From contig NC_134036.1 of assembly GCF_964204645.1 (NCBI RefSeq), forward strand, positions 3,213,501-3,277,500: a stretch of DNA of 64,000 bases, written 5' to 3'. The translations under genes were made by a program, and so were the position numbers. Position 1 is the stretch's first letter, and the number at the start of each line of letters is the position of its first letter. Shown one piece after another: positions 41,392 to 63,709 of this stretch. This DNA comes from Tubulanus polymorphus. Lineage: Eukaryota; Nemertea; Palaeonemertea; Tubulaniformes; Tubulanidae. The notes under the pieces were generated by a model. The model was given only the letters and a program-made list of their open reading frames with translations. It was not told where the DNA came from and did no database searches.

Positions 41392-44300
41392 TTAATCTTT
41401 ATCCGCTTCGACAGATTCTGTCGAAAGATCGTCGACATCAGGACCCGCGGTGGTCTGATCGGATATTTCGCCTCGAATCGCAGAAGTGGTGTCGCGATTG
41501 TTGTCATGTCCAAACTCAGCTCGTATCTCGCCGTCTTTCTCATCGCGATCAGATAAAATTTTTGGATCTTCGTTTTGTTGATTCTCCGTGTCACCGATTA
41601 AACCCGCGACCATCGGAATATCGCTATCATTAAGGCAAGGATCGACGGATTCCAAGAAACTATCGAACAGATTTTTGCCGTCGAAATGCTCGATTTCGCA
41701 CGAGTAGTCGGCGCCGCTGCTTTCGTCGTCTAACTGTCCGGAATGTTCAGTTTCGACGTCGGTTTGTATCGTGAAACTGTTATCGTGCTGAATTTCTTCT
41801 TTGGAAATCGCACCAGTATTCGCAGCGTCGGAAAGCAGAACGTTCTTTACCCTAAAATCATTCCTCGGTACGGGCATCGCTTTCTCTTCTAGATCCGGCG
41901 GCGATATTTCGCCACACGGGAATTTGTCGGAGTCCTGCGGACGCGGCGATGAGCAGCATCGCGGCGACTGCTGGCATCGTTCATCGTCCGCTGTAACCGC
42001 CTCGACGGACACCTCCGCAGCCGCGAGTACGAACGTACTTTCTCTGTCCGAGTTCGGGGTCGAATTCATGGAACTATCGAGTTTCAACACGAATGGACTA
42101 TTATCGTCGCAATCCATGTCAGCTGTCAACATCGCGTCAACCGATTCGCCGACAGCTTCTATCGCGTCTCCTATATCGACCTCGTCCTCTGTATTCATGT
42201 CATCATCATCCTCATCATTGCCGCATATTCCTTCTTGCTCTTCCTCCAGTTCATCTAGTTTCTCCAACAATTCCGATTTCATTCGCTCCAATTCGTCCAT
42301 CTTCTCTTCGATTTCTTCCGCCAGATCTTGCTGTTGTATTTTCGACTGAAGGCTCTCTGCGATTTCGTCCATTTTTTCGCAGCTATCTTCGTCCATCTTT
42401 TCATCATCGTCACCATCATTTCTATCTTCGTTCCGGATCACAACATCATTCGCATCCTCTCCTGGTTTTCTTTCTTCAGACTCATTTTCATCTAATTTCA
42501 ACGCGAAAACAGGTTTTTCTAACACAACAGGACCAGGAGCCACTACTTTGACCTCAGTAGCCTCGCTAACCTCTGGCACTTCACTTTTCTCGCGTTCTCT
42601 TAAGTTAGTTGAAGCGGTTTCAGTAACATCGCTGTTCAACTCTTCACCGCTACTCTGTTCAACTCGAACATCGCCGCAATCATCATCACCAGTAGATTTC
42701 AACTCCGCCGATTCACTGTTCTTCACAAGAGGAGTAAATTCCTCACGTAGACTACGTCTAACCTCCGAGGACGGTTTCGATTTTTCCTCAGATATAACCC
42801 CGACATTGTTTTTAGCAGCAGCAGCAGCAGCATCCAATCCAGGTGTGGATTTCGAAGCTCGTGGTTTTGAATCACGTTTTGACAATGGTTTTGATTTCGC
42901 GATAGTTTCATGGTCGTAATCAAGCATTTCTTCGAAGCTCAGTCGTTTCCTCGACGAGCTAATTAGTGCTGGTCGTGGTTTCTGCTTCTTGGGCGGAATC
43001 TCCGTCTCCGGGAGCCTCGTCTTTCCTTCAGCCGCCCGTTTCGTTTCCAATCCAATCCCTTTAATTTCACTATTTGCTTTTTCTCCGACCATCGAATCTT
43101 TTCCCTGGGAACTTTTGGATGTGACAGGTTCTGCTTTGCGTTTCATTTCGTCGACGATCTCTTCTCCTTTTGACAGAACTTCGGGAGAACTTTTCGATTT
43201 ATCAATCTTCGATTTTGCAACATCTTCCTGATCTTTTTCATGATGCGATTTCTTGTGCTGATTGCGCTTCGTCGTTTCAATTTTCGACAGAACTATTTTG
43301 CTATGAGATATCCTCTTCGATTTGTATGATTCGGTCGGACATCCGTGGCTGCCGGCGGATGCTTGCGAGCTTCGCCCGCAAGACAAGCACGCTTTCGTAG
43401 CGACGGTCGTTTCGTGATCGGCATGAAAATGTTTGTCCAGTTCGACACGAGATTCCACGCTCCGCTGACAAGTCGGACAATGATCGGTTGACTCGGCGAC
43501 GTCGTCAGAAGCTTCTGACGTAATTTTCTCGCGTTCTTCGCTCGGCAGGATTTTTGGTTTGGCGGCCGGTATTTTCGCAACTCTTTCGACGATCTCCGAA
43601 TCGCAACGCTTCAAAGCGACCACCGGTTTACGCATTAGTTTTTCGTCTGGAACGACAGTGGCGCCAGCGGCCGGTTCAATGCTGTTACTGGCGGAGACGG
43701 GTTTCTCAGCGACGGCGTGTTTGGAAACGTGTCGCACCAATTCGTACGTGTGTTGGAAGTTCATTCCGCAGACGGAACACTTGTTGCGCTCGGGCGGCAG
43801 TCGTTTCTGCAATGCTTGCATCTTCTGTATGATACGCTTCTGCAGTTCATCGCGAGTCGTAGTACCCGTTGTCGAAGTCTTCGCGCGACTATCGCCCCCT
43901 AGTGGTGGTGATGCAATCTTCGATGATGTTGCGCTTCCTGAAGACTCTAGCGATGATGATGACGATGAATTTTGGCTTAATGAAACTTTCGAAGGCGAAT
44001 CATCTTTACCGATTGCAGAAGAGGTTGACTTCAACTGTGTATTTTCACCAACATTGGATGCAGGAGATGTAACTGACGAGGAGTGATCGGTCTTGTCGCG
44101 ATTCTCTAGTCCGGACTGAGAAGAATGGACTGATTTCTCATGTTCGGATAGCAGCGACCGCGACTCAAATACGCCCCAATCACACGATGCGCATTTTCGG
44201 TAGTCATGGCATTGAACGAAATGCTGTTTCAATTCCGCAAGCGACGGGAACGCTCGCGCGCAATGTCGACATCGCTTCGAGGACGGATGCACGGTCGCCA

Positions 44301-47300
44301 GGTGCCGTCGCAGGTACGTTTTATCGGTGAACCCGCGGTCGCATCGTACGCACGGATACGGTTTCCGGTGCATACGCATGTGCATCTTGTAAAGCTTCTT
44401 CAAGTGGAACGAACACGCGCACGCCTCGCACCAGTAGTCGCGTTGGGTTGTGTGCTGCGCGACGTGCGTCAACAGGAGAACGCGCGACGCGAACCTCCGT
44501 TCGCAGATTGAACACGCGAACGCGCGATTCGACAGATGGTGTCGGCGTTTGTGCGAATTCAGCCGCGACCACGACGCGAATGACGGACGACTCGCCGTGC
44601 ACAGGTGGCACGCGAAGTGTCTGCGCGCGATTCCGTGTCGCCGGTGTTTATGCAGAATCAACGAATCGCGGTTGACGAATCGACGGCTACAGAGCGTACA
44701 CTTGAACGACGCTGCTTCAAAGCTGCTCGTATGCGATCTCTTATGTGCCTGCGCTAAACGATGCAGCGTGAATCGCTTCTCGCAAACTTCGCATCGATAT
44801 TGCTTTCCGATCGATGGTTTTAAGGTAGCTTTAGCAACGGCTGATGTTTGGCGAGTCTTGCTGTTGCTGCTGCTACTGCTAGTCTGAGATGATGTTGATT
44901 TCTTACGAGCTTCAGGGGGTTCACAAGGAGGCGACATTTTTATTTTAGCCGATACCTGATTCTGATGAGGCTCACTAGGGGGTGTTGTCTTTGAGGCAGG
45001 CGGAGTCTGCACAGTCTCACTAGTAGTTGTTGTTTTTGAGGCAGGCTGAGTCTGCAGGGTCTCACTAGAGGGTGTTGTCTTTCTGGCAGGCCGAGTCTGC
45101 GCGGTCTCACTAGTAGTTGTTGTTTTTGAGGCAGGCCGAGTCTGCGCGGTCTCACTAGTAGTTGTTGTTTTTGTGGCAGGCTGAGTCTGCAGGGTCTCAC
45201 TAGGGGGTGTTGTCTTCCTGGCAGGCCGAGTCTGCGCGGTCTCACTAGAAGTTGTTGTTTTTGAGGCAGGCCGAGTCTGCGCGGTCTCACTAGTAGTTGT
45301 TGTTTTTGTGGCAGGCCGAGTCTGCGCGGTCTCACCAGTAGTTGTTGTTTTTGTGGCAGGCTGAGTCTGCAGGGTCTCACTAGGGGGTGTTAGTTTTGTG
45401 GTAGGCAGAGTCTGCAGGGTCTCACTAGGGGGTGTTGATTTCGTGGCAGGCTGAGTCTGCAGGGTCTCGCTGGGCAGCGTTGTTTTTGTCTGATGAGGCT
45501 CACTAGGAGATATTGTCTGCATGGTCTCATTAGGTGGCGTGGTTAGCGTCCGTTGAGGCTCACTCGATTTCTCTGCTGCTGCGACTTCAGAATCTAGTTT
45601 CCCATCATTAACTTCATCATCATCTTCATTCTCATCTTCCATCGTAATAATTTTCATCGGTACACCTGGATGCTCGTGACGGAAGTGCGGAATGGCGGCG
45701 TTAACGTGGTCGAAAATCGTCGAGCAAATAGCGCACTTGCACGGCTGCTGATTGGACGAATGATGCACCAGGTGACGCCGCAACGACGCCATTTTCATCG
45801 ATGCTTTGCACAGTGGGCAGATTACGTGATCTCGTTTGGCGCCGACCCGGGACGCAGTATCGTCCTCGGTTTCCGTCTGCAGCTGAGCTTGCACCATGCG
45901 TAGCCTCGAATCGTGCGCGATGCCGCATCTGGCGAGGCAGCTACCGACGTGTTTGTCGTACGCGTGTTTCTTACGATACGACGCCCCGCAGCCCTTGCAC
46001 GTCCGGCCGTGCGCGGCGAAGATGTGCTGCTCGCATTCGCACTCGCTTAAACCAGCCCACGAACAAGCATCGCACAGGTAGACCTTTGGGTTGGCGGTTA
46101 CGACGGCGCCGCAATCGTGAATCTTCAACTCGTCTACGTCGACGAAACGCTGCTTGCACAAATTACACGCGTAAATCGGCACGCGTCGCTCGATCGGGTG
46201 CGCGTCAGCGGCGTGCTCGCGCGCGGCTACCGCGTCCGGGAAATACCGCGGGCACGTGTGACAGCGTATGCGCGTCGTGTACACCGCTCCGCTGCGGTGC
46301 ACGTCGAGCCCGTGTCGGAGCGCGTGGCTCTCGACGGCGTAAACGCGTCGACTCTTCGGCGGGCAGATCGTGCACTCGTGTTCGTAAACGAGCTGCCAGT
46401 GATTGTCGGCGACGTGTTTGTCGAGCGTCGACAACGCGCGGAACGCGTAACCGCACGCGTAGCACACGTACGGACACTCGTTCGCGTGCGCCGACGCCGC
46501 GTGGCGCAGACATTTCGATTCGTTGGCGAACATCTCGCGACAAACGCAACAACTTTTACGACGCGTTCGTTTCTGACGGTCGTTCTTATCGGAAATCTCG
46601 ACGGCGGTCGTAGTAGTTTTCATTTGGTCGATGGCGCGTGATTTTCTGGTCGATGCCCTCTTTTTCCTATTCGATATTTTTGTGTCTGAAAATTCAACGA
46701 AATATCATCAAGAAAACACACGCTTTGCGATAACTCTGCGCACTTGTAGAAATCGAACGTACCGGACTTTGTCTGAGTTTTCTGCATAATTGATGACGTA
46801 TCTTCTTCCATCGCTTCATTACAGTTGAGATCGACAACAGGATTTACATCAGGAGTATCGCTTGTAGCAGAATGATGACGCTGTGCGAAAACAAATCAAC
46901 AAAATTCAAATAAATATCATCCGAGAGCGTTATTACAGGTATCATTCTGTAACCTGGATTCACTAAGAGCGAACGATCGACAATCATTTAAGAAAAATGC
47001 GTTGATAAAATGTCTAATATCTGGTGTTTATAGATCATTTTCAATTAAAATTTTTCCGGTGATTTTCTGAAATCACGCTAGAAATTGAAAGAATGCATTG
47101 ACTGAATGTTTATTTTGCCTATAATAAAGTCTCTACCTAAACTCGAGTTTACGAATTTTATCCGAAGTCAAACATATTTAGTTCACAGCAACTCTAAATC
47201 AGTACATTGTATTCAACAAAGCCAATTATGAATAATAGTTTACACATGGTTCCAAATAAAATGGAAAAATATTTCATCCAAATTAAGTGAAAATCCGGAT

Positions 47301-50153: not shown

Positions 50154-50852
50154 GATGATGGAGTTCCTTGCTTAGCGAATCCTATTCAGAAATCAACAAA
50201 CAACTAAAAAAAGAAGGGAAGTTTGATAATCAAGAAAGAGAGGGGTTGTTTTGCTTAAAGACCCGACGAGGTCTATTCCAGGATCGAGCTAGCAAATATC
50301 GAATTGATCCGATTCGATCGATCAATCAACGAACGCGGTCTGAATTGATTTTTTTCATCATCTTTTAATTCAAACATCTTCTTTCTTCATTTTAAACGCA
50401 TTTATCGTAAAACTGGAAACAATCCGAGGCAATCAGGAGTTAACCGACTTACCTAACTTTCAACTAGATTCAAAGACGAAGGCTGACACGCTTCCGTCGC
50501 TGCAGCATCGTCGTCAGTAAGGCGGAGGCTGACCCAGGGAGGAACAGCTTGAGGCTATATTCATCAATAAAATGTTGCTTTAGTTGCGTTCATTTCAGCG
50601 CTGTCGATACTAGGTTCGAATCCCGAAAACCTGAAAACGAATTCCAATTCACTTTATTGATCACCGTATTTGGAAATTCCGACCGACGGTGCGCGAATTA
50701 CCGCTAGACGGTGCACCGTTCGATAATAAACTACACATCGAAACTTGTTTCGTACACATTTTGTTTCTAGGTCATAACTGTGTTCGGGATGTGTATTTTG
50801 AATAGTAGATAACGATATCTTAGATTCTTAATAATCTGTTGTATTTCATTCA
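50154..50852. promoter_or_regulatory. Shared divergent promoter region, zinc-finger gene and ENTPD
   Basis: The two start codons lie 699 bases apart and point away from each other, so the promoters and 5' UTRs of both genes must lie here unless a distant non-coding first exon exists. I could not place a TATA box or start sites with confidence. Confidence 0.45.
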
Positions 50853-52211
50853 ATGTTCAAAAACTACACGAAACCGACATTTCATGTCTACAGTTCATTT
50901 ACGAATAAGAAAGGAGGTATCATGGATTTCGTGAAGAATTCCAGGTTCGTTTTGGTCGTTTCTCTCGGGTTTCTGGTGATCGTCGGTTACTACATGGTAC
51001 GCGGCAGCGGACCTTACGATCCCGTTAAGGTCAGTTTGGACGCTTCGATGCCCGTAGGCGTGGCCAACGCCACCAGAACGATGTACGTCATCATGTTCGA
51101 CGCGGGAAGCACTGGCAGTCGAATTCACGCTTACGAATTCGTGAAGGACAACGTGAACAACAAGATCGATTTGAAGGACGAATTATTCGAACACGTCAAG
51201 CCTGGGCTGTCGTCCTATGCCGACGATGCCAAGGCGGGTGCCGAAAGCTTACGAACGCTGGTGGAAAAGGCGAAGAAATACATCCCGCAAGACCAGTGGG
51301 CATCGACCCCGCAAGCGCTGAAAGCCACGGCCGGTTTGAGATTGTTAGAGAAACACAAAGCCGACAACATCTTGAACGAAGTACGCGATTTCATGCGCCG
51401 TCAACCGTTTCAATCGGTGGAAAACGTCGTCGAAATCATGGGCGGTACTGACGAAGGAGTTTACAGTTGGTTCACGATAAATTTTTTGAAAGGTCACCTG
51501 GCGAATATCGCGACGACCGCCGGCGTCATCGACCTGGGCGGCGGATCGGTGCAGGTAACCTTCATACCTCGCGAGGGATCGGACACGAAGAAAACCGCCC
51601 CGAAATCGCATCTGCATCGGGTACCTGTCATGAAACGCGACGTGGACCTTTATACGCACAGCTACCTAGGACTGGGTCTGATGTCGGCTCGTATGCAAAT
51701 ATTCGGGCGCGATCCCGACGCGAAAAGCCCGACCCAGTCGACGTCTAACGAACTGCATAGTCCGTGTATCGCTCCGGCCATCGAAACCGAATGGGAATTC
51801 CAAGGAAACAAATTCACAGTTCGCGGAACAGACGATTCTAACAGTTTCGAGTTGTGTTATAAAGCCGCCCGGGCGGTCGTCGTGAAGCACAAAGTATTCT
51901 CGCCGGTGGAGATTAGAAAAGATCGGCCTTTCAATTTGATCTCATATTTTTTCGACAAGGCCGCCGATGCCGGCTTGATCGACGAAGAGAAAGGCGGTCA
52001 TTTGACGCTGGAAGATTTCTCGAAAGCGGCCGCGAAACTTTGCGCCAATCACGACGCGAAACGCCCGTTTTTGTGCATGGATCTCTCGTACATCACCGCG
52101 CTACTGCGCGACGGATGGCGTTTCGAAGAGCGAACTCAGTTTTCGCTCGAAAAGAAAATCAAAGGCATCGAAACGGCTTGGACATTGGGAGCAGCGTATC
52201 AATTACTATGA
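50853..52211 (+). CDS. ENTPD5/6-like: Nucleoside (di)phosphate hydrolase, ENTPD5/6 type, intronless
   Basis: A single uninterrupted ORF of 452 codons with an N-terminal signal anchor (about residues 32-49) and a lumenal GDA1/CD39 catalytic domain. Apyrase regions are in order: DAGSTGSR (83-90), ATAGLR (158-163), MGGTDEGVYSW with the expected catalytic Glu201, IDLGGGSVQ (226-234) and SYFFDKAADAGL (364-375). The family hydrolyses nucleoside di- and triphosphates. ENTPD5/6 prefer diphosphates such as UDP and GDP in the ER/Golgi lumen, supporting glycoprotein folding. The C-terminus ETAWTLGAAYQLL matches the family's ETGWALGATF pattern. The usual DLGGAS is DLGGGS here. Vertebrate orthologues have many introns, so the intronless structure is notable. 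The second ATG (50922, Met24) has the better start context (A at -3, G at +4) and may be the true start, which would give 429 residues. Confidence 0.95.
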   Translation: MFKNYTKPTFHVYSSFTNKKGGIMDFVKNSRFVLVVSLGFLVIVGYYMVRGSGPYDPVKVSLDASMPVGVANATRTMYVIMFDAGSTGSRIHAYEFVKDNVNNKIDLKDELFEHVKPGLSSYADDAKAGAESLRTLVEKAKKYIPQDQWASTPQALKATAGLRLLEKHKADNILNEVRDFMRRQPFQSVENVVEIMGGTDEGVYSWFTINFLKGHLANIATTAGVIDLGGGSVQVTFIPREGSDTKKTAPKSHLHRVPVMKRDVDLYTHSYLGLGLMSARMQIFGRDPDAKSPTQSTSNELHSPCIAPAIETEWEFQGNKFTVRGTDDSNSFELCYKAARAVVVKHKVFSPVEIRKDRPFNLISYFFDKAADAGLIDEEKGGHLTLEDFSKAAAKLCANHDAKRPFLCMDLSYITALLRDGWRFEERTQFSLEKKIKGIETAWTLGAAYQLL

Positions 52212-53444: not shown

Positions 53445-56400
53445 TTAGATGACCTCTTCTCCGGCTGCTTCTAATATAGCGCCGCTGAACGCCAGATCCC
53501 AGTAGTGTTGAACGCCGTGTTTTTTAAACTGTTCCCGAGCGAACGTTTCGGTCGGGCACGCTTTGAACTTTATGTCGCCGAATGAACGATGTTTCACTTG
53601 ACCCTGCAAAGACAAGAAAGCGACTGATCTAGAAACCTTTGATTCCGACTTAACCTGATATCTTTAATTGGAGAAGATTTCACCTAGCCTGGAAATAATT
53701 TTTCATCGAAAATAATAGTTTTAGTATAATGAGCAAAACCCATAGTTGAATGAACTTCATCACGCTTGGTACGATAACCACACTCAAACGTGGTGAACAG
53801 ATGATAAGATAAAAACCCACTATTTACAAATTAAAAGAAATCTAAAATCGAGAATTTATTTATTGAAACAATCTAAAATATAAGAACACGACGTTTCGAT
53901 CTCACACTAGAGATCATCGTCAGGTGTGAGATATATCATCACGCTTCTCTGATGATGAACTTTAGTCAAAACTTCGAAACTGTTGGAATAAATTGTTGCA
54001 TCATCAACTGTGGGTTTTGTTCATTAACTCTGAATGAGATTAGTCTCTACCACAGTCACTTGTAGTTTACTTGAAAATGAACTTAAAAATCATCTTAATT
54101 TTCAAGATGAGCTCGACTTCAAAATGGTAGAAACTACATGTAAACAGTTGGCTTAGGTGTGCAAGAACTTAAAGATATTTTTCGAACAATTTTTTTAGAT
54201 TAGATTTTTAAAATACGAACCGTCCAAACTAGGTGACATTTATTCCGTTTGTCAGAATCATCATCATCCTCGTCATCGGATACGTCATCTACAAACAAGT
54301 GAAAACATTATAAATCAAACATTTTAAAACGGCAAAGTGCAAGAGGGTCGTCATTTCCCCATTTTTCGAAAGTTAAATTTGATTATCATTTAAAATTCGT
54401 TTATTTCTTACCTTTATTTGCTTTGTCCTCTTCCCATTTGATTCGGTGCATCATCAAACGACGAAATTTCTTCTGTTGTTTCGGACCTAAATCGAGCACA
54501 AAAATTTGTTGAAAGACAAGAGACAACTACTGATTTTGAGGAAAGTTGCAATGAAGTTTCTTTTCAATCAGTGGTTAAAAGACACAATAAATTGATTGTC
54601 TTACCGAAAGAAAAGTTGCAGAGGAATTTTTCTCACAACATCAAATTAGGACTTTATTTTTTTTTTCTCATTTCTGCTGAGCTTATTATAAGATGACCAG
54701 GCCTGTACATTACTGTATCTACCCTGTATATTACTTTTCTTTCAAATCATGATAAAGCTAACAATAACGGAATCAGCAGTCATAGAAATGAACTGATTAC
54801 AAATTTGATTGCAGATTACAGATGACCCAGTTGATTATGAGAAACAAGGTATCATTTTTGTTTAGCCTAAGAAATAAATAACAAAAGAAATGCCACCGAT
54901 TCTGAGAAGTTTCCTAGCAGTTATATTTCACTGTGAAGAAGACATGGTTAGAAGGTAAAGAGATCATTCTGATTTTACGAAGTGTCAAGCCAAGTTTCAG
55001 AAGGGGATGAAAGATGTTTCCGCTGATTCTGACGAGCAGATGAAGTGGTTGACAATAACACGGGAGAAGAGGGTTCAGTTTATGTTCTACATCTAAAAAC
55101 AAACATACCTCCTTCGACGGCTACTACGTTACAATCTTTGTACAACACGACGAATCCGGTCATTAACAACTGAATGCAATTCTGTTCGACTTTAAACTTC
55201 TTCGACGGGTGACTTAGATTCTTGATCCTGTCAAATACATATTAGATACACGAAGATAGAAATTATCTTTAAAAGGATATTTTTTGGAAAAGCATGTTGC
55301 TGTCTCTCACCTGTAAACTGCTACATCTATCCCTAATGACGTGTCCTCGCGGATTTTCTTCAGTTTTTTCTCGCGGCGTTGATCAGGGGTCAGTTTACGC
55401 GCCGCGTTCGTTTCTTCATGTAGTCTACGAAATACAGATAATACCCATAGTATACGTCACGTCTGAACACACGGGATATTTCGATTTCATGTTTGATGGT
55501 CAAAATGACTACTAAATTATTGATACATAATCAAAGTGATTATTTGATTGGCTTTTTCCCTAACTTATATCTTGGCTTATATCTCTGACTATTCCCTGAC
55601 ATGGATGTTGTTTTTCCTTTATTGATCTACGAAGAATCCAATCAATTAACACAGTCAAAATACGCAAATGGAAACTGTTTGATTATATGCACAATTTGAC
55701 TACTTTAGTGAACAAATTATCCGTGACTTGCCTTTTTAGCTTTTTTTACAAAATTGTCAGAATACTCCCCAACTTTTAGAAAATTCCACGCCTTTACCCT
55801 GATTTCCTGGTAAGTGGCCACCCTTATAAAGTCAGTTTAAAAATGACGACACCCATTATCAGGATAAACATGATGATAACCTATAACAACAGGCTTACCG
55901 TGATAACTAAAACACAGAAACAATATGAGTTGCCCCCAAGTAATAGATCATTCATAAACTATCCTAACCATAGTAACCATGAACATGATTAGCCCAATAT
56001 CCCTACACTACAAGTACCAGCATTTGAGGGCACTGAAAATATGAAAGGAAACTGACTTTTGACGTTTTGCCATCTGCGCTCGTACGTGCGCTTCTATCTT
56101 GGTCGGATCTTGTACGGCTTCGGTGCCCAACACTCGCATCAAATTAGCCATTCGCACTGAAATAAGGGCAAACATTAAGTTAACCATATCATCTTAGCTT
56201 GTTATCTAGTTTCATCTTTAAATAGGGATTCTCCCTGTTATTCATTCGTTTGGATGATTTGGTCTGATATGTGTTGATTTGGTGTCCCTTACAAACGCAC
56301 CACACTCGCCGGGAACAAATCAGGCAGTTTTTCAATAATTATGTGGCTTGGACGATAAGCAACTACGCCGATAGAGACAATATCTGAACCGGTGCAGCAA

Positions 56401-59400
56401 AGCTTGCCCAAACTTTTATCTACCTATATCTCTTACACATTGACAGGTAAAACTGTTCAACATGCCTTATGTTATAGGATATCTATCAACCACAGATCTC
56501 ATTCCACGCCTATGATCTTTATCCTTAGTAAATTTGACCATATACGAGTTATTTGACGTATCGAAAATAAGTAGTTTGATAGAAAACGAGTAAGAAATTA
56601 TGCTGATTTTGATATTCCTGGGAGAATTTGAGCATCGAACCCGTTCAGTGCAGTGTATAAATCAGTGCTGATGGACTCCGCGGTGTAGAGGCAACCAGTG
56701 TGCCCGTTATTCAACACACTGGGGTGGAATTTTTTCGAAACCATCTCCAGCACTTTTGGGTATTAATAAGTCAGCTCTGAAAGGGTTTTAAAGAATAGAA
56801 ACTAATCTTCGATTGTAGTCAAGTGTGAGATACCTTTCGGTTCGGGAGGAGGCATCAGTCCGAGGCGTATTTTCTCTGTCACATCTTTTTGCGCTTCCGT
56901 ACGATTTTGACGGCGTAACTTTTTGCGTTCTTGTTTCGTCAGGATGACGGGAATAGGAACGACTTTTTCGGGTTCGGCTGAAAACAGAAAATCAAACGCA
57001 ATGTAGTACACACGCATAATACTCGAGATCTAAAAGATGCCATTTCAAATATAGGGGTCAATTAGAGGTTAGAGTTAAGCAGTACAGTCAACCCCCTATA
57101 TACCACCAACATTGGTTGTTTTACTATGTATTTGTATAGAGATGTACATCGAGAAAACCTGGCGGTAGGCCGGGAAGGCGTTATATCAGGGGTTGACTGT
57201 AGTTAAATGCCATAGTGACAATTGGAATTGCATTATTACAATGGTATTTGTCCAATCAACTTTCCAAGCAACTTGCATGATTGATAACTCTCAAATGCCG
57301 ACTAACGACATTCAACTGGCAGCAGTTACGGTCAACTCACCGGGTGGTTTCATCTGAGCAGGATGTTCCACTAGGAACGTGATGCCTTCCAGTTTATCGA
57401 CTAATATTTCAGCTTCATCATTGTACATGTCATTATAACTGTAAAATATCAAAACGTTTAGGGTTAGTTGCTTTCAAACATGGATGCCATGGACCTATTA
57501 TCAAAGAATTCCACTATTGACTTTCTCACTCCTCATATCTATACAGTATCAATCGGAAACCTCAATCTTACATGCCCCAAGACATTGGAAATTTCATCAA
57601 CACTTGTCCAATCTTTGATTGTCTAGACTTCACAAGTGTTCAGTGTTTCGCCAGACAATTATGTAATTGAAAAGAACTACAAACAACAGACGGAGATTTC
57701 ATCAGCTGACTTTCAAGAACTGATCGTCCATACTTAACATGTGTTCAGCACTTCATCTGAGACATTTTTTCATTAGAAAGGAACTAAAAACACCAGACAT
57801 TAGATAATCTTAAAGAATGCTTTCAAAACCCGATCGTCCATGGCTTTAAACTCCCAGGGCTAATGTCTGAAAAGGGTGTTTGCAGGCAGCTGAATCGCAC
57901 ATACGGACAAATGCTGATGGAAAATCATATCAAATACGGGTACAAACGTATCATGCATGAACAGTAGACATACATACCTGACCCCTCTCATGATAACACT
58001 ATCCCACCACTCAACATCTGGTATTTCACCCTCGTGTATCTCGTGTTTCGGTTGAATCGTCGCCAGTTTCGCCGCCGACGCGATTCCTGTTTTCTTCGCC
58101 GCCTGCGCGATGTCCTGCTGCAGCTTCTCGAGTTGCGCCTTCGTGCGCATGCGCTGCGCCACCTGCTGGAATTTACCGGCGTCGTGGAACTTGAATAAAC
58201 GACGCGTGCGCGTTGCGCTTTTCAAACTGTAATCGAAAGAAGACCTTTTTGATTTTTTTCATGACCTATTTGTTTAAACAAATTCAATTTGTTCTTACAA
58301 TTATATCTTCCTTGTCACTGGCAAGAAAACAAAGAGACACTAAAAATTCGAAGTCCCCGATTATGCCGTGACCCGTGCCCCAAATATTCAAATTCCATGA
58401 TTTTCAAGAAAATAGTAAGAGTTCCCTGATTATCCCAGCAGGTAAAATTAAATCTGGAATAATTCCCTGATTACCATAGTCACACTAACAGAACTCGCGA
58501 GCATTTTCTGACTGAATAAAATGTTTGAAATTGACCCTACCTGACTCTGTTGTCGAAGAACTGAGCCTCGGCCGTCACTTCTTCCGGCAATTTCTCGGCG
58601 AGATTCTGCTTGAATTCTTCGCGACGTTTCGCCCGGATATTCGCCTGAAGTTCGAAATCAACCACTTACAATAATACGCGAACGCCAATAAAGCATTGAA
58701 CGCTGCCTGATTTCAATCTTACTTACTTTAAGCGTAGGCATATGATGCGCTAGAGTAATAGCTTCACCAGTCGAAGCATCGATCGTTCGTCCTTCATCGT
58801 CCAAAATAACAGGAGCTGGTCTGAAAATTCAGAAACTTTCATTCGCACTTTTTATAAAACGAACACAGGCACTGATCGGCATATTTCATTGACTTCTCCC
58901 CCATTTTGGCCATGACTGACATTTGAATAAGGCGGAGTCAACTGTTTCATTAAATGCATATAATTAACACTTACTTAGAAGTAGCTGTCACCACTTTCCT
59001 GAAAACAAAAACCAAACCACAAATTATTTCATTGCATTTAAAAACGTGGAAATCTACAATAACTCGACTGTAGCCGGTGATGTTTATGGAACGAGGTTTG
59101 ATTATCACCATGAAAGTGGAACTTTGAATAATTTGATACCAAAGAGAAACAATTTTCCAACATCCCCAACTTCTAGCGTATTTTGGGTGAAAATTTTGCT
59201 TCTTTTTCCTACAATTTCGCCTCAAGTCAAGTAAGTTTGGAAGCAAGTGCTCATTTTGAAGAAGAAAACAAATGAAAGCGTCACCAATGAGCGAATCTTT
59301 GAAATCGATGTTCTCATTTTCTGGCCGGCATCTGTGCCAAACTTTGTCAACAAGATGGGCTCAATTGAATCAACATTTTTCCATACACTTACGGAATAGC

Positions 59401-61380
59401 GTTTCGTAGTTGCATTTCTTGCGTCGCCGAGGCGATTTGTTGTTGTAGTCTCGCCGTCCTCGCCATTGTATCGGCCAAAGTCGACGACGCGCCCGGGGGC
59501 ACGGACAAGGTCGCCGCACGGATCTGCGGTATCGTCGCCTGCAAGGCAGACACAAAGAAGTCATATACACAAACTTTCCACCTGTTTACAAATTTCTTGA
59601 GTTTGCGATATGTGATTATACAAAATTCCCCCCCCCCCTCCGAGTGATTCAGAGAAATTTCTAGATTTAAAATGTTACAATTCATTCATTTTTCAGCGAA
59701 TCACGTATTAATAAAGAAACACGAAATCAATAACATTATCCAATTTCCTTGAGTTTTCTGTACGTACTATGCCGGTTCATATTCATCCATTTACGAAAGA
59801 CTCACCTGAATTTGAGCTTTTCGTTCTTGAATCATTTTCTGTGCGTTCGCCATCATTTCCTTAATCTACGTAAAGTGAGAAAAAATTGCATCAGGCAACG
59901 CGCGTTCTCTTTCTCAATTATTCATGAATTACGCCATCATTAGAGTAGTTACCTTATCAGCGGTCAGTTGTCCGGGACTCGGCTGTCCCGGTTCGGGAAT
60001 CGTCACCGGAGCGCTGTCCTCGAATTTCCGCTTCTTTTTCGTGTCGGACGAAGCATCGTCGTCGGTGAAACCGCGTTCTTCCTGAAACGGACGAGTGAAA
60101 AAAAAAAACAATTTTCTAAATTTCAAATATTGATTTCCAATGGAAATCAGTAGTAGAAATGAGCGGTTAACAACGGATAAATCGACGTATGATTTCTACG
60201 CACTTTACGCTTTCGCGATTTTTTCCTACTGGACGAACTGAAATCGTCGACGACGTCGAAGAGTTTATCGGTGAATTTGGCGGCTTGTTTCTCGTCGAGT
60301 ATCGCCGATAGTTTATCTGAAATAACACGACAATCAGGGTTCTGTATTTGTAGCAATACGCGACTGACTCGAAAATCAAAAATTTAACGGATACACTTAT
60401 TTTTCAAAATCAATGATTAACAATTTCAGTGCTGACTAATTAATACCTGAAAAACCTGGAGATAATTGATAATCAAAATAAAAATTTCACCCCAGTGTTA
60501 AATAACTGGCATACTGCTAGAGTGCGTCTAACGCTGTGGGCCAGTGTATCATTTGTTCTGTATTTGTAGCAATACAAGACTGACTCGAAAATCAAAATTT
60601 TTGATAAATGATTGACAATTTCAGAGCTGACTAATTAATACCCGAAAGTGCTGGGGCCAGTTGCTCAGTTGTGACTTAAGTCAAAAATTGGTCTTAAATC
60701 TTAAGACTGGTCTTAAGTTGTTAGATTGGCTATAGAACTTAGTTGGTCTTAAGTCTACGCCATGTAACCGGCCCAGGGCCCAGTTGCACAGTCGTGACTT
60801 AAGTCTAAAAGTGGTCTTAAATCATAAGACCGGTCTTAAATTGTTAGATTGGCTATAGAACTTAGTTGGTCTTAGACTGGTCTTAAGTCTAAGCCATGAC
60901 TATGCAACCGGCCCCTGGAGATAATTAATAATTTAAAAAAATTCCACCTCAGAGTGTTAAATAACTGGCATACTGCTTTGGTGAGTCTACAGCGCAGTGC
61001 GGTGTATCATTAGTTACTAATATTTTCCAATGTTTGACAGTTGCTTCCATCTTCCGATAGAGATAAAATCTTATTACTAATTACATCAATACACAGCAAT
61101 GCTGTGTACTGGCAAAATCTATCACTGATTTGTACACCGCAGTAAAGGATAAGGCGTGAAATAAAACAATGCAAATTGCAATCGCATTCGATGTTTTTAG
61201 AGTTACTGGGCCCGAATCATTCCACCTCTCCTCACCTCGGGTCTTCCGTTTATCGTATCCCTTATCGACGCAGTTGATCGCCGCGGTAACCAACGTCGTC
61301 TCGCTGAATCCGAGGAATTTCTGTACGGCTCGATTCACCTCCGGTTTCAAAACGTCCAAATCTTTCCGCGACAGAGACAT
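53445..61380 (-). CDS. PRPF3: U4/U6 small nuclear ribonucleoprotein PRP3
   Basis: Seventeen exons, all in phase, give 646 residues (human about 683): 61236-61380, 60204-60316, 59953-60081, 59806-59865, 59393-59538, 58975-58998, 58727-58820, 58541-58644, 57978-58226, 57341-57438, 56834-56977, 56057-56156, 55311-55424, 55109-55227, 54412-54486, 54221-54288, 53445-53603. The N-terminal PWI domain ([20 protein letters not shown] onward) comes first, then a charged and Gln-rich linker. The PRP3 core follows ([55 protein letters not shown]). The C-terminal DUF1115-type domain ends [14 protein letters not shown] then HYWDLAF. PRPF3 binds the U4/U6 RNA duplex with PRPF4 and holds the di-snRNP for spliceosome assembly in the nucleus. 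Two donors are weak: GTGCGT after exon 2 and GTTCGT after exon 16, the latter supported by strong protein continuity. Confidence 0.96.
55540..55830. repeat. Dispersed repeat, TTCCCTGAC family, copy 3
   Basis: Contains CTGACTATTCCCTGACATGG, ACACAGTCAAAATACGC and GGAAACTGTTTGATTAT, and ends AAGTGGCCACCCTT, the complement of the GGGTGGCC start of copy 1. It lies in a PRPF3 intron. Confidence 0.65.
57085..57199. mobile_element. 115-bp mariner-type MITE with TA flanks
   Basis: CAGTCAACCCC at the left and GGGGTTGACTG at the right are inverted repeats, each flanked by TA. The core contains GGCGGTAGGCCGGGAAGGCG. It lies in a PRPF3 intron and is a different family from the element at 41073. Confidence 0.8.
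60653..60774. mobile_element. MITE, GGGGCC-GTTGC family, copy 2
   Basis: Begins GGGGCCAGTTGCTCAGTTGT and ends CCATGTAACCGGCCC. The interior is TGGTCTTAA-rich and matches the element at 28098-28227. It abuts copy 3. Confidence 0.8.
60776..60915. mobile_element. MITE, GGGGCC-GTTGC family, copy 3
   Basis: Begins GGGCCCAGTTGCACAGTCGT and ends CATGACTATGCAACCGGCCC(C). It is in direct tandem with copy 2, one base apart. Confidence 0.8.
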
Positions 61381-62365
61381 CTTTAGTTCTTTTGTTCTAG
61401 TTTTTAGTTGTCTTTCTTATGATTATGATTCTCGACCTGTTGGTGAAAAAAAAGGAAAACGCGCTGTTAACTACTTATTCATGTGTTAACAAGCTTTACA
61501 TCATTTGGATCATTGTTTCCCAACATTCGTCCCATTGGATTGTTGATTTAACCTGAAGACTGGACCACAGCCTTTGAAGTGTCACCCCCATACTGTAGTG
61601 TAAGCAGCCAGTAGGACTTGAACCTACTTGTCAGTCAGTCATGGGATGGATAGGCCTAGGTACATAAATAGGTCGGTAAAACCACGACACTGTTTTATAT
61701 GTGGTAAAATATTGTGGCGCTAGCCTAGTCTATTGAACTGATGGATTAGGTTTGGCACATAACCATTAATGATACTTTTACTTGAATTACTTCGAAAAGA
61801 ATAGGCCTAACCCATTTTTGACAGTGAGACTGGTTTAAATACTTATTTCTGAGATAGACTGAGCCTTTAATTTCTGCCCTGGCAAGTGAGGTGAGGACTG
61901 TTGTTAAAACGAAATGAAAACGTATTTTCGAAGCGATTTACTCGGATTTCGACCGGTTCTGACGATTAGAAATATTACAAAAATTTTCAATACGAAAATT
62001 CTAATTCGACACGGGCTTAATACCGGAGATTCACTCCAATAAAAGCGGTTAAATCGTCACAAATTCCACTGAATCGTACCTTTCATTCGAGTTGAGACGC
62101 CATTAATCTTCTGCAGCATCCGTGCGCGAGTAAATTAAAATTAAAATTTGTTGAAAGACTCGGTCACGATTTTCGCTTATTCCAGTATTACCTGCTCTAA
62201 CGCGAATCCTTAAAAATAAGAATTTACTCCTTTTACGTGTTACTTTTGTTCGACGGATTTGAATTGTTCGATTTTCCGTTTCAGTCGGTGTTCTAGGCCG
62301 GCGGAGAAACTCGCTACGGCTGATCGGCGCGCTGCGCGATTTACGAATAGTGTGGAGCATCCAAC
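61381..62365. promoter_or_regulatory. Shared divergent promoter region of PRPF3 and LSM7
   Basis: The ATGs of PRPF3 (minus, 61380) and LSM7 (plus, 62366) are 985 bases apart and diverge. The right part becomes richer in G, C and CpG just before LSM7. No TATA box stands out, which fits housekeeping promoters. Exact start sites cannot be read from sequence. Confidence 0.5.
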
Positions 62366-63465
62366 ATGGCGCACGTAAGAGATGGAAAAGGCGATCGAGA
62401 GGTAAACATAAATCGTTTAATCGCGGCGTTGTGCAGCTTTTGGGCGGGTTAATAAAATGAGTGTGACAAGGACAGAAGAAAAGTGGGGGTAATGGGAATA
62501 GTATTTTTTGGGATGGGGGAGGTAGAACTGTCTAATTTTAGACAAGTCAGTCGAGCTGGAGGTGGAGCGGAGCCCGGAGGGCCGGACTGGCTCGATTCGA
62601 AGCGAAAAAGGAAGGTCGAAGTAAAACTGACATTTTTTTTGTTTTTCAGCCTCAACAGGAAAAGAAGAAAAAAGAGACGATCCTCGATCTGTCGAAGTAT
62701 ATGGATAAAAATATACGAGTAAAATTCAGTGGAGGACGAGAAGGTGCGAAGAAAAATAGTTCAAAAATTTTTTCATCATCTAATGACGTCGACTTGAATT
62801 AATCTTCAATTAATTAACGATTAATCGAAGTGAATGATATTTGTATTTTCAGCCGGTGGACTCTTGAAAGGTTTCGACCCATTGTTGAATCTTGTATTGG
62901 ACGACACAGTCGAGTTTCTCCGAGGTAGGTTCTAAGTTTCCGCGAGATTGAAACCTTTTCAGGACCAGTGGGGGACCCAATGTCCCCTGTGCTAAAAGTT
63001 TACAAACCACCTAGCCGATTATGGGGTCATTGTTGATAAATCAGCTATTTGGTTTTCAAATGTCAATGCATTCCTATATGTGCTGCCATCTGGTATTGAA
63101 ACTTAACACTAAGGAGAAAATCAGAGAAATATTGCCTGGCTCTATAAGGTTTTTTAATCAGTGATGTACTTTCGAAACAATTACAAACATTTCAAAGCTA
63201 CACCCTGTCTTCTTAAGAGCATTTCTTATTTAGTTATGAGCTTTTAAGGAATCAAGGAGTCGTAAAGATCCTGTTATTACTACCCGTAATCATATTCTTA
63301 ATTTGAATTTCTTTGTTTAAAATTTCAGATCCCGATGACCCGTACAAACTAACGCAGCACACGCGCCCCCTAGGATTAGTCGTATGTCGCGGCACGTCGG
63401 TAGTTTTGATTTGTCCGTCCGACGGAATGGAAGCGATACAAAACCCGTTCATCAATCAGGAATGA
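62366..63465 (+). CDS. LSM7: U6 snRNA-associated Sm-like protein LSm7
   Basis: Four exons in phase give 103 residues, the usual LSm7 length: 62366-62374, 62650-62743, 62853-62924, 63329-63465. The protein begins MAHPQQEKKKKETILDLSKY, carries the Sm1 motif (IRVKFSGGREAGGLLKGFDP then LLNLVLDDTVEFLR) and the Sm2 motif (LGLVVCRGTSVVLICP), and ends MEAIQNPFINQE. LSm7 is part of the LSm2-8 ring that binds the 3' end of U6 snRNA in the nucleus and of the LSm1-7 ring in cytoplasmic mRNA decay. The 9-base first exon is fixed by the ATG, a GTAAGA donor and phase 0 to exon 2. Confidence 0.96.
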
Positions 63466-63709
63466 GTTAAAATACGACATCGGAATTCTCCGAGGACAAT
63501 TTAAAAAGTTTTGCGGAACGGAGCGTAATGATCTCGAAATAACTACCGAAAACGAAACTTTGTGCCCTCTGTGTATTTGAGCAGGATTATAATTGATAAC
63601 ATAAAGAGCCCCTAATAATAGTAGAGAATTCGGTCTTAGAAATCTTCGTAATGAGATCAAGGGGTTGCTATCGCTGTGCTGGCAAAAATATCTAGCATTT
63701 AAATATGTT

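Follow-up and report, generated by a model that had tools for sequence, protein, structure and literature searches.

PRPF3 and LSM7 of the palaeonemertean Tubulanus polymorphus are adjacent and intact genes that lie on opposite strands in a divergent orientation, as revealed by gene models, Pfam profiles and structure matches. We consider it fairly likely that the two are single-copy housekeeping genes in a divergent pair of the ordinary kind, which are served by one promoter and whose products share a particle by coincidence. The window analysed is a stretch of 64,000 nucleotides on contig NC_134036.1, and positions are counted from its first base unless a contig is given. The two genes are organized as follows.

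53445..61380, (-): PRPF3 coding region, rebuilt model of 17 coding exons, 646 aa, no internal stops
61236-61380, 60204-60316, 59953-60081, 59806-59865, 59393-59538, 58975-58998, (-): PRPF3 coding exons 1-6
58727-58820, 58541-58644, 57978-58226, 57341-57438, 56834-56977, 56057-56156, (-): PRPF3 coding exons 7-12
55311-55424, 55109-55227, 54412-54486, 54221-54288, 53445-53603, (-): PRPF3 coding exons 13-17
62366..63466, (+): LSM7 coding region, 4 coding exons (62366-62374, 62650-62743, 62853-62924, 63329-63466), 103 aa, Pfam LSM

In the spliced model, the start codon of PRPF3 is located at 61380-61378 on the minus strand. The encoded protein displays the domain order PWI, PRP3 and Prp3_C (Pfam E-values of 8e-9, 2.8e-76 and 6e-45, respectively), with human Prp3 as the top match, and its best match among solved structures is the human hPrp3 chain 3jcr_K, with an E-value of 1.1e-202. 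A search against structure chains aligned residues 5-103 of the LSM7 protein to human LSm7 (3jcr_7) with an E-value of 4.3e-51, compared to only 4e-13 for the best chain that is not an LSm7. These matches uphold the identities that had been assigned to both genes in a sequence-only reading. Each gene is present in one copy in the 268-Mb assembly. Moreover, the two proteins occur together as chains in seven tri-snRNP structures (PDB 3jcr, 5o9z, 6ah0, 6ahd, 6qw6, 6qx9 and 8h6e), in agreement with the earlier claim that they act on the same particle.

The rebuilt models also reproduced the opposite orientation of the two genes, and the interval first reported, 61236-62374, is correctly bounded by the ends of coding exon 1 of PRPF3 and coding exon 1 of LSM7. 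The gap of 985 bases is exact from start codon to start codon (61381..62365); as a distance between transcription starts, however, it does not stand. Any 5' UTRs reaching into this gap would leave the starts nearer to each other than 985 bp, except where the two 5' ends overlapped.

The interval between the start codons

The interval and its borders contain the following features.

61881..62365, no strand: CpG-rich stretch adjoining LSM7, CpG o/e 2.01, the likeliest site of a shared promoter
~61480..61655, (-): degenerate copy of a SINE-like repeat, with B-box-like GGTTCAAGTCC, in the CpG-poor part
61437..62079, (-): candidate PRPF3 5'-UTR intron, with donor AAG/GTACGA at 62079 and acceptor ...TTTTCACCAACAG at 61437
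62098..62103, (-): ATGGCG in the candidate PRPF3 5'-UTR exon, opening a 6-codon upstream ORF (MASQLE)
62362..62373, (+): LSM7 start context CAACATGGCGCA, matching the YY1-like TISU consensus at 10/12 positions, of putative function

The 985 bases do not make up one uniform promoter, because a CpG-poor part that bears a repeat is joined to a CpG-rich part. The CpG o/e is 0.42 in 61438-61880, and that of the PRPF3 introns is 0.78. For the repeat at 61480-61655, about 40 other genomic matches were scored from among 250 candidates, and most of these matches show 76-79% identity over ~145 bp. In the other copies, a tRNA-like B box, GGTTCGAGTCC, is found on the strand equivalent to minus at 61480-61655, so that this dispersed repeat is probably a tRNA-derived SINE. 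A motif scan found no TATAWAWR in 61381..62365, and consensus sites for TATA, DRE, CREB, CCAAT, ETS and NRF1 were either absent from 61880-62365 or present no more often than expected. In addition, an Rfam scan of the window revealed no RNA gene, and no known snRNA or snoRNA family in the interval.

Given how CpG is distributed and how close the genes lie, a shared promoter is plausible in the physical sense, and the two genes probably have one. We infer the transcription starts of PRPF3 and LSM7, the 5'-UTR intron, factor binding, co-expression and coincidence in the following way. Both genes would be transcribed outward from one open, CpG-rich and TATA-less promoter of ~200-300 bp, located roughly at 62080-62365. 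PRPF3 would possess a short non-coding first exon that is spliced at 62079 to the coding exon, and the intron between them may have been lengthened by the SINE-like repeat. LSM7 would start just 5' of its ATG and have a very short 5' UTR. The common open chromatin could result in a weak co-variation of the two mRNAs. The presence of both proteins in the tri-snRNP is most likely a coincidence in a class of genes that is divergently paired about half the time in this genome.

The putative donor at 62079 scores 9.1 on the minus strand, and the 19 known donors of PRPF3 and LSM7 score 6.2-11.5. Donors scoring at least 9 occur at ~0.2 per kb per strand, and the chance probability of such a donor here is roughly 10-20%. 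Although it carries a long T tract, the putative acceptor at 61437 scores 5.8, below all known acceptors of the two genes (6.6-16.1), which speaks against the explanation we favour. A further point against it comes from the plus strand, where the site at 62284 resembles an acceptor (9.8) and that at 61891 a donor (8.9), which would allow an upstream 5'-UTR exon of LSM7. If the intron from 62079 to 61437 is real, PRPF3 would start upstream of 62079, leaving less than ~290 bp to LSM7, and the true promoter interval would thus be shorter than 985 bp.

The TISU element is associated with YY1 and with very short 5' UTRs. Over the 64 kb, ATGGCG occurs rarely on the plus strand (6 times) and more often on the minus strand (20 times). 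The YY1- or TISU-like matches on the two sides of the interval were spotted post hoc and are weak evidence.

Alternatively, the interval might hold two separate promoters, with PRPF3 starting near 61400-61500 and LSM7 near 62340. The weak candidate acceptor at 61437, the high CpG of the PRPF3 coding exon itself (o/e 1.4-1.6) and the position of the repeat between the two CpG-rich zones are all consistent with this arrangement. However, the CpG-high DNA near 61200-61400 is coding, and the PRPF3 exons have a mean CpG o/e of 1.65 in any case, whereas CpG is scarce (0.28-0.56) in the DNA immediately 5' of this coding exon, which is partly repeat. Two promoters are rather unlikely, and a single promoter adjoining LSM7 is preferred.

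Divergent neighbours of other Sm/LSm and tri-snRNP genes

Comparison with other genes of the same class showed that a divergent neighbour is common in this genome. The set (n=15) consists of 12 other Sm/LSm genes, with names assigned by eye from the translations, in addition to PRPF4, PRPF6 and SART1. About 5 kb of upstream DNA was inspected per gene wherever available, with ~1.6 kb for PRPF6 and ~4 kb for SART1. At least 7 of the 15 genes have a divergent coding neighbour within ~2 kb. Distances start at the first exon that could be recognised, and for some genes they are maximum values.

SNRPG: VCP (CDC48_N)
SNRPF: MED20 (Med20), C3:24311300-24316800, interval CpG-rich (o/e ~1.7-1.9)
SNRPD2: a TPR protein resembling TTC9C, start codons 721 bp apart
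LSM4: OGFOD1 (4nhx match)
LSM10: DHX35, a spliceosomal DEAH helicase (9s2f match), C3:10368100-10373700
SNRPD1: an SLC6 transporter
PRPF4: a DUF4550 gene

Among the remaining genes, SNRPD3 and LSM6 have upstream neighbours on the same strand (EMP70/TM9SF and NAT10, respectively), and LSM8 has a reverse-transcriptase-like stretch upstream. SNRPB, LSM2, LSM5, PRPF6 and SART1 have no evident coding neighbour in the upstream DNA inspected. The Prp31_C profile had no match in the genome, but none in the controls either, so that the result carries no weight as to absence.

Only one of the seven control partners, DHX35, is linked to splicing, and the other six are unrelated to it. This base rate indicates that the divergent order is normal for Sm/LSm and tri-snRNP genes here, and that a partner of the same function is a minority outcome. 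The pairs SNRPD2-TTC9C, SNRPF-MED20, SNRPG-VCP, LSM10-DHX35 and LSM4-OGFOD1 share the arrangement of PRPF3-LSM7 at a similar distance; unlike PRPF3-LSM7, they mostly have partners outside splicing, with the exception of DHX35. A special status of the pairing is not supported by the comparison: roughly half of the sampled genes of this kind have divergent neighbours, and these are nearly always unrelated.

Assuming ~20,000 genes and ~140 spliceosome genes, about half of which are bidirectional, we roughly estimate that ~0.3 divergent spliceosome-spliceosome pairs are expected by chance per genome. Across all complexes, a pair from the same complex somewhere in a genome is an unremarkable coincidence.

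Known bidirectional pairs and the question of selection

In a survey of eight eukaryotes, the bidirectional genes of every one showed an enrichment of the spliceosome pathway, and the bidirectional share of Drosophila genes was 32%; the study excluded the functional relation of partners as the driving force behind the pairing (Xu et al. 2012; PMC3403606). Co-expression is frequent between neighbouring genes, whereas a functional relation is rare, and proteins are largely buffered against this co-expression (Kustatscher et al. 2017; PMC5572396). Work cited in that paper reportedly found two subunits of one complex in no bidirectional pair of yeast or human. A literature search found no paper that joins PRPF3, LSM7 and a bidirectional promoter, nor anything of use on LSM7 together with SPPL2B. 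The closest known likeness outside this genome is the bidirectional housekeeping promoter, for example that of PREPL-C2ORF34 (PMC2713978), where the genes are also divergent, less than 1 kb apart, and have a short CpG/GC-rich intergenic segment with a YY1-like site; experiments have shown that at least one other bidirectional pair requires a YY1 site (PMC2713978). PRPF3-LSM7 differs in that both products are in one particle, and its promoter is a putative one.

Alternatively, selection might keep the pair because a common promoter balances the supply of PRPF3 and LSm7 for U4/U6 assembly. The shared tri-snRNP structures, the start codons 985 bp apart around one CpG-rich zone, the YY1-like ATGGCG on the PRPF3 and LSM7 sides, and LSM10-DHX35 as a second divergent pair of RNA-processing genes in the same genome all point in this direction. 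LSm7, however, is not a dedicated partner of U6, as it is also part of the cytoplasmic LSm1-7 ring, and six of the seven control partners have nothing to do with splicing. Given this second ring and the numerous comparable pairs whose partners are unrelated, there is no support for a special co-expression device. Moreover, most of the co-expression in pairs of this sort is buffered in the proteins (PMC5572396). Altogether, selected co-regulation appears distinctly unlikely, and it is quite improbable that selection has kept, in this invertebrate lineage, a bidirectional promoter from which two subunits of one splicing particle are co-expressed.

If it were true, such a promoter would be an exception to the statement that bidirectional pairs of yeast and human hold no two subunits of one complex. 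Should conservation and a coupling of protein levels be shown for PRPF3 and LSM7, they would form one of the rare bidirectional pairs from the same complex, and one that tests whether promoter sharing can be selected for stoichiometry or only for low noise. As it stands, PRPF3-LSM7 is another divergent housekeeping pair.

The arrangement is probably lineage-specific. Human PRPF3 lies at 1q21 and LSM7 at 19p13.3, in agreement with the earlier remark that the pairing is not known from vertebrates. It is very improbable that the two were neighbours in the bilaterian ancestor and split in vertebrates: 1q21 and 19p13.3 are often put in one four-fold paralogy group, but PRPF3 and LSM7 are not known to be linked in fly, worm or yeast.

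Flanking genes and repeats

Beyond the 3' end of PRPF3, a single-exon ORF of a GDA1/CD39 nucleoside phosphatase (50835-52208, plus strand, 458 aa) runs convergently with it. On the other side, a mitochondrial carrier gene, probably SLC25A42-like, lies 3' of LSM7 and is convergent with it (C12:3277501-3287500). One open frame of 1770 aa at 41395-46704 on the minus strand encodes C2H2 zinc fingers and imperfect repeats of the SETAQTRPATKTTTT type. In addition, intron 1 of PRPF3 contains at 60643-60925 two similar copies of the motif GGGCCAGTTGC...GACTTAAGTC...GGTCTTAA, both of which bear inverted TTAAGTC/GACTTAA arms and look like a small palindromic mobile element.
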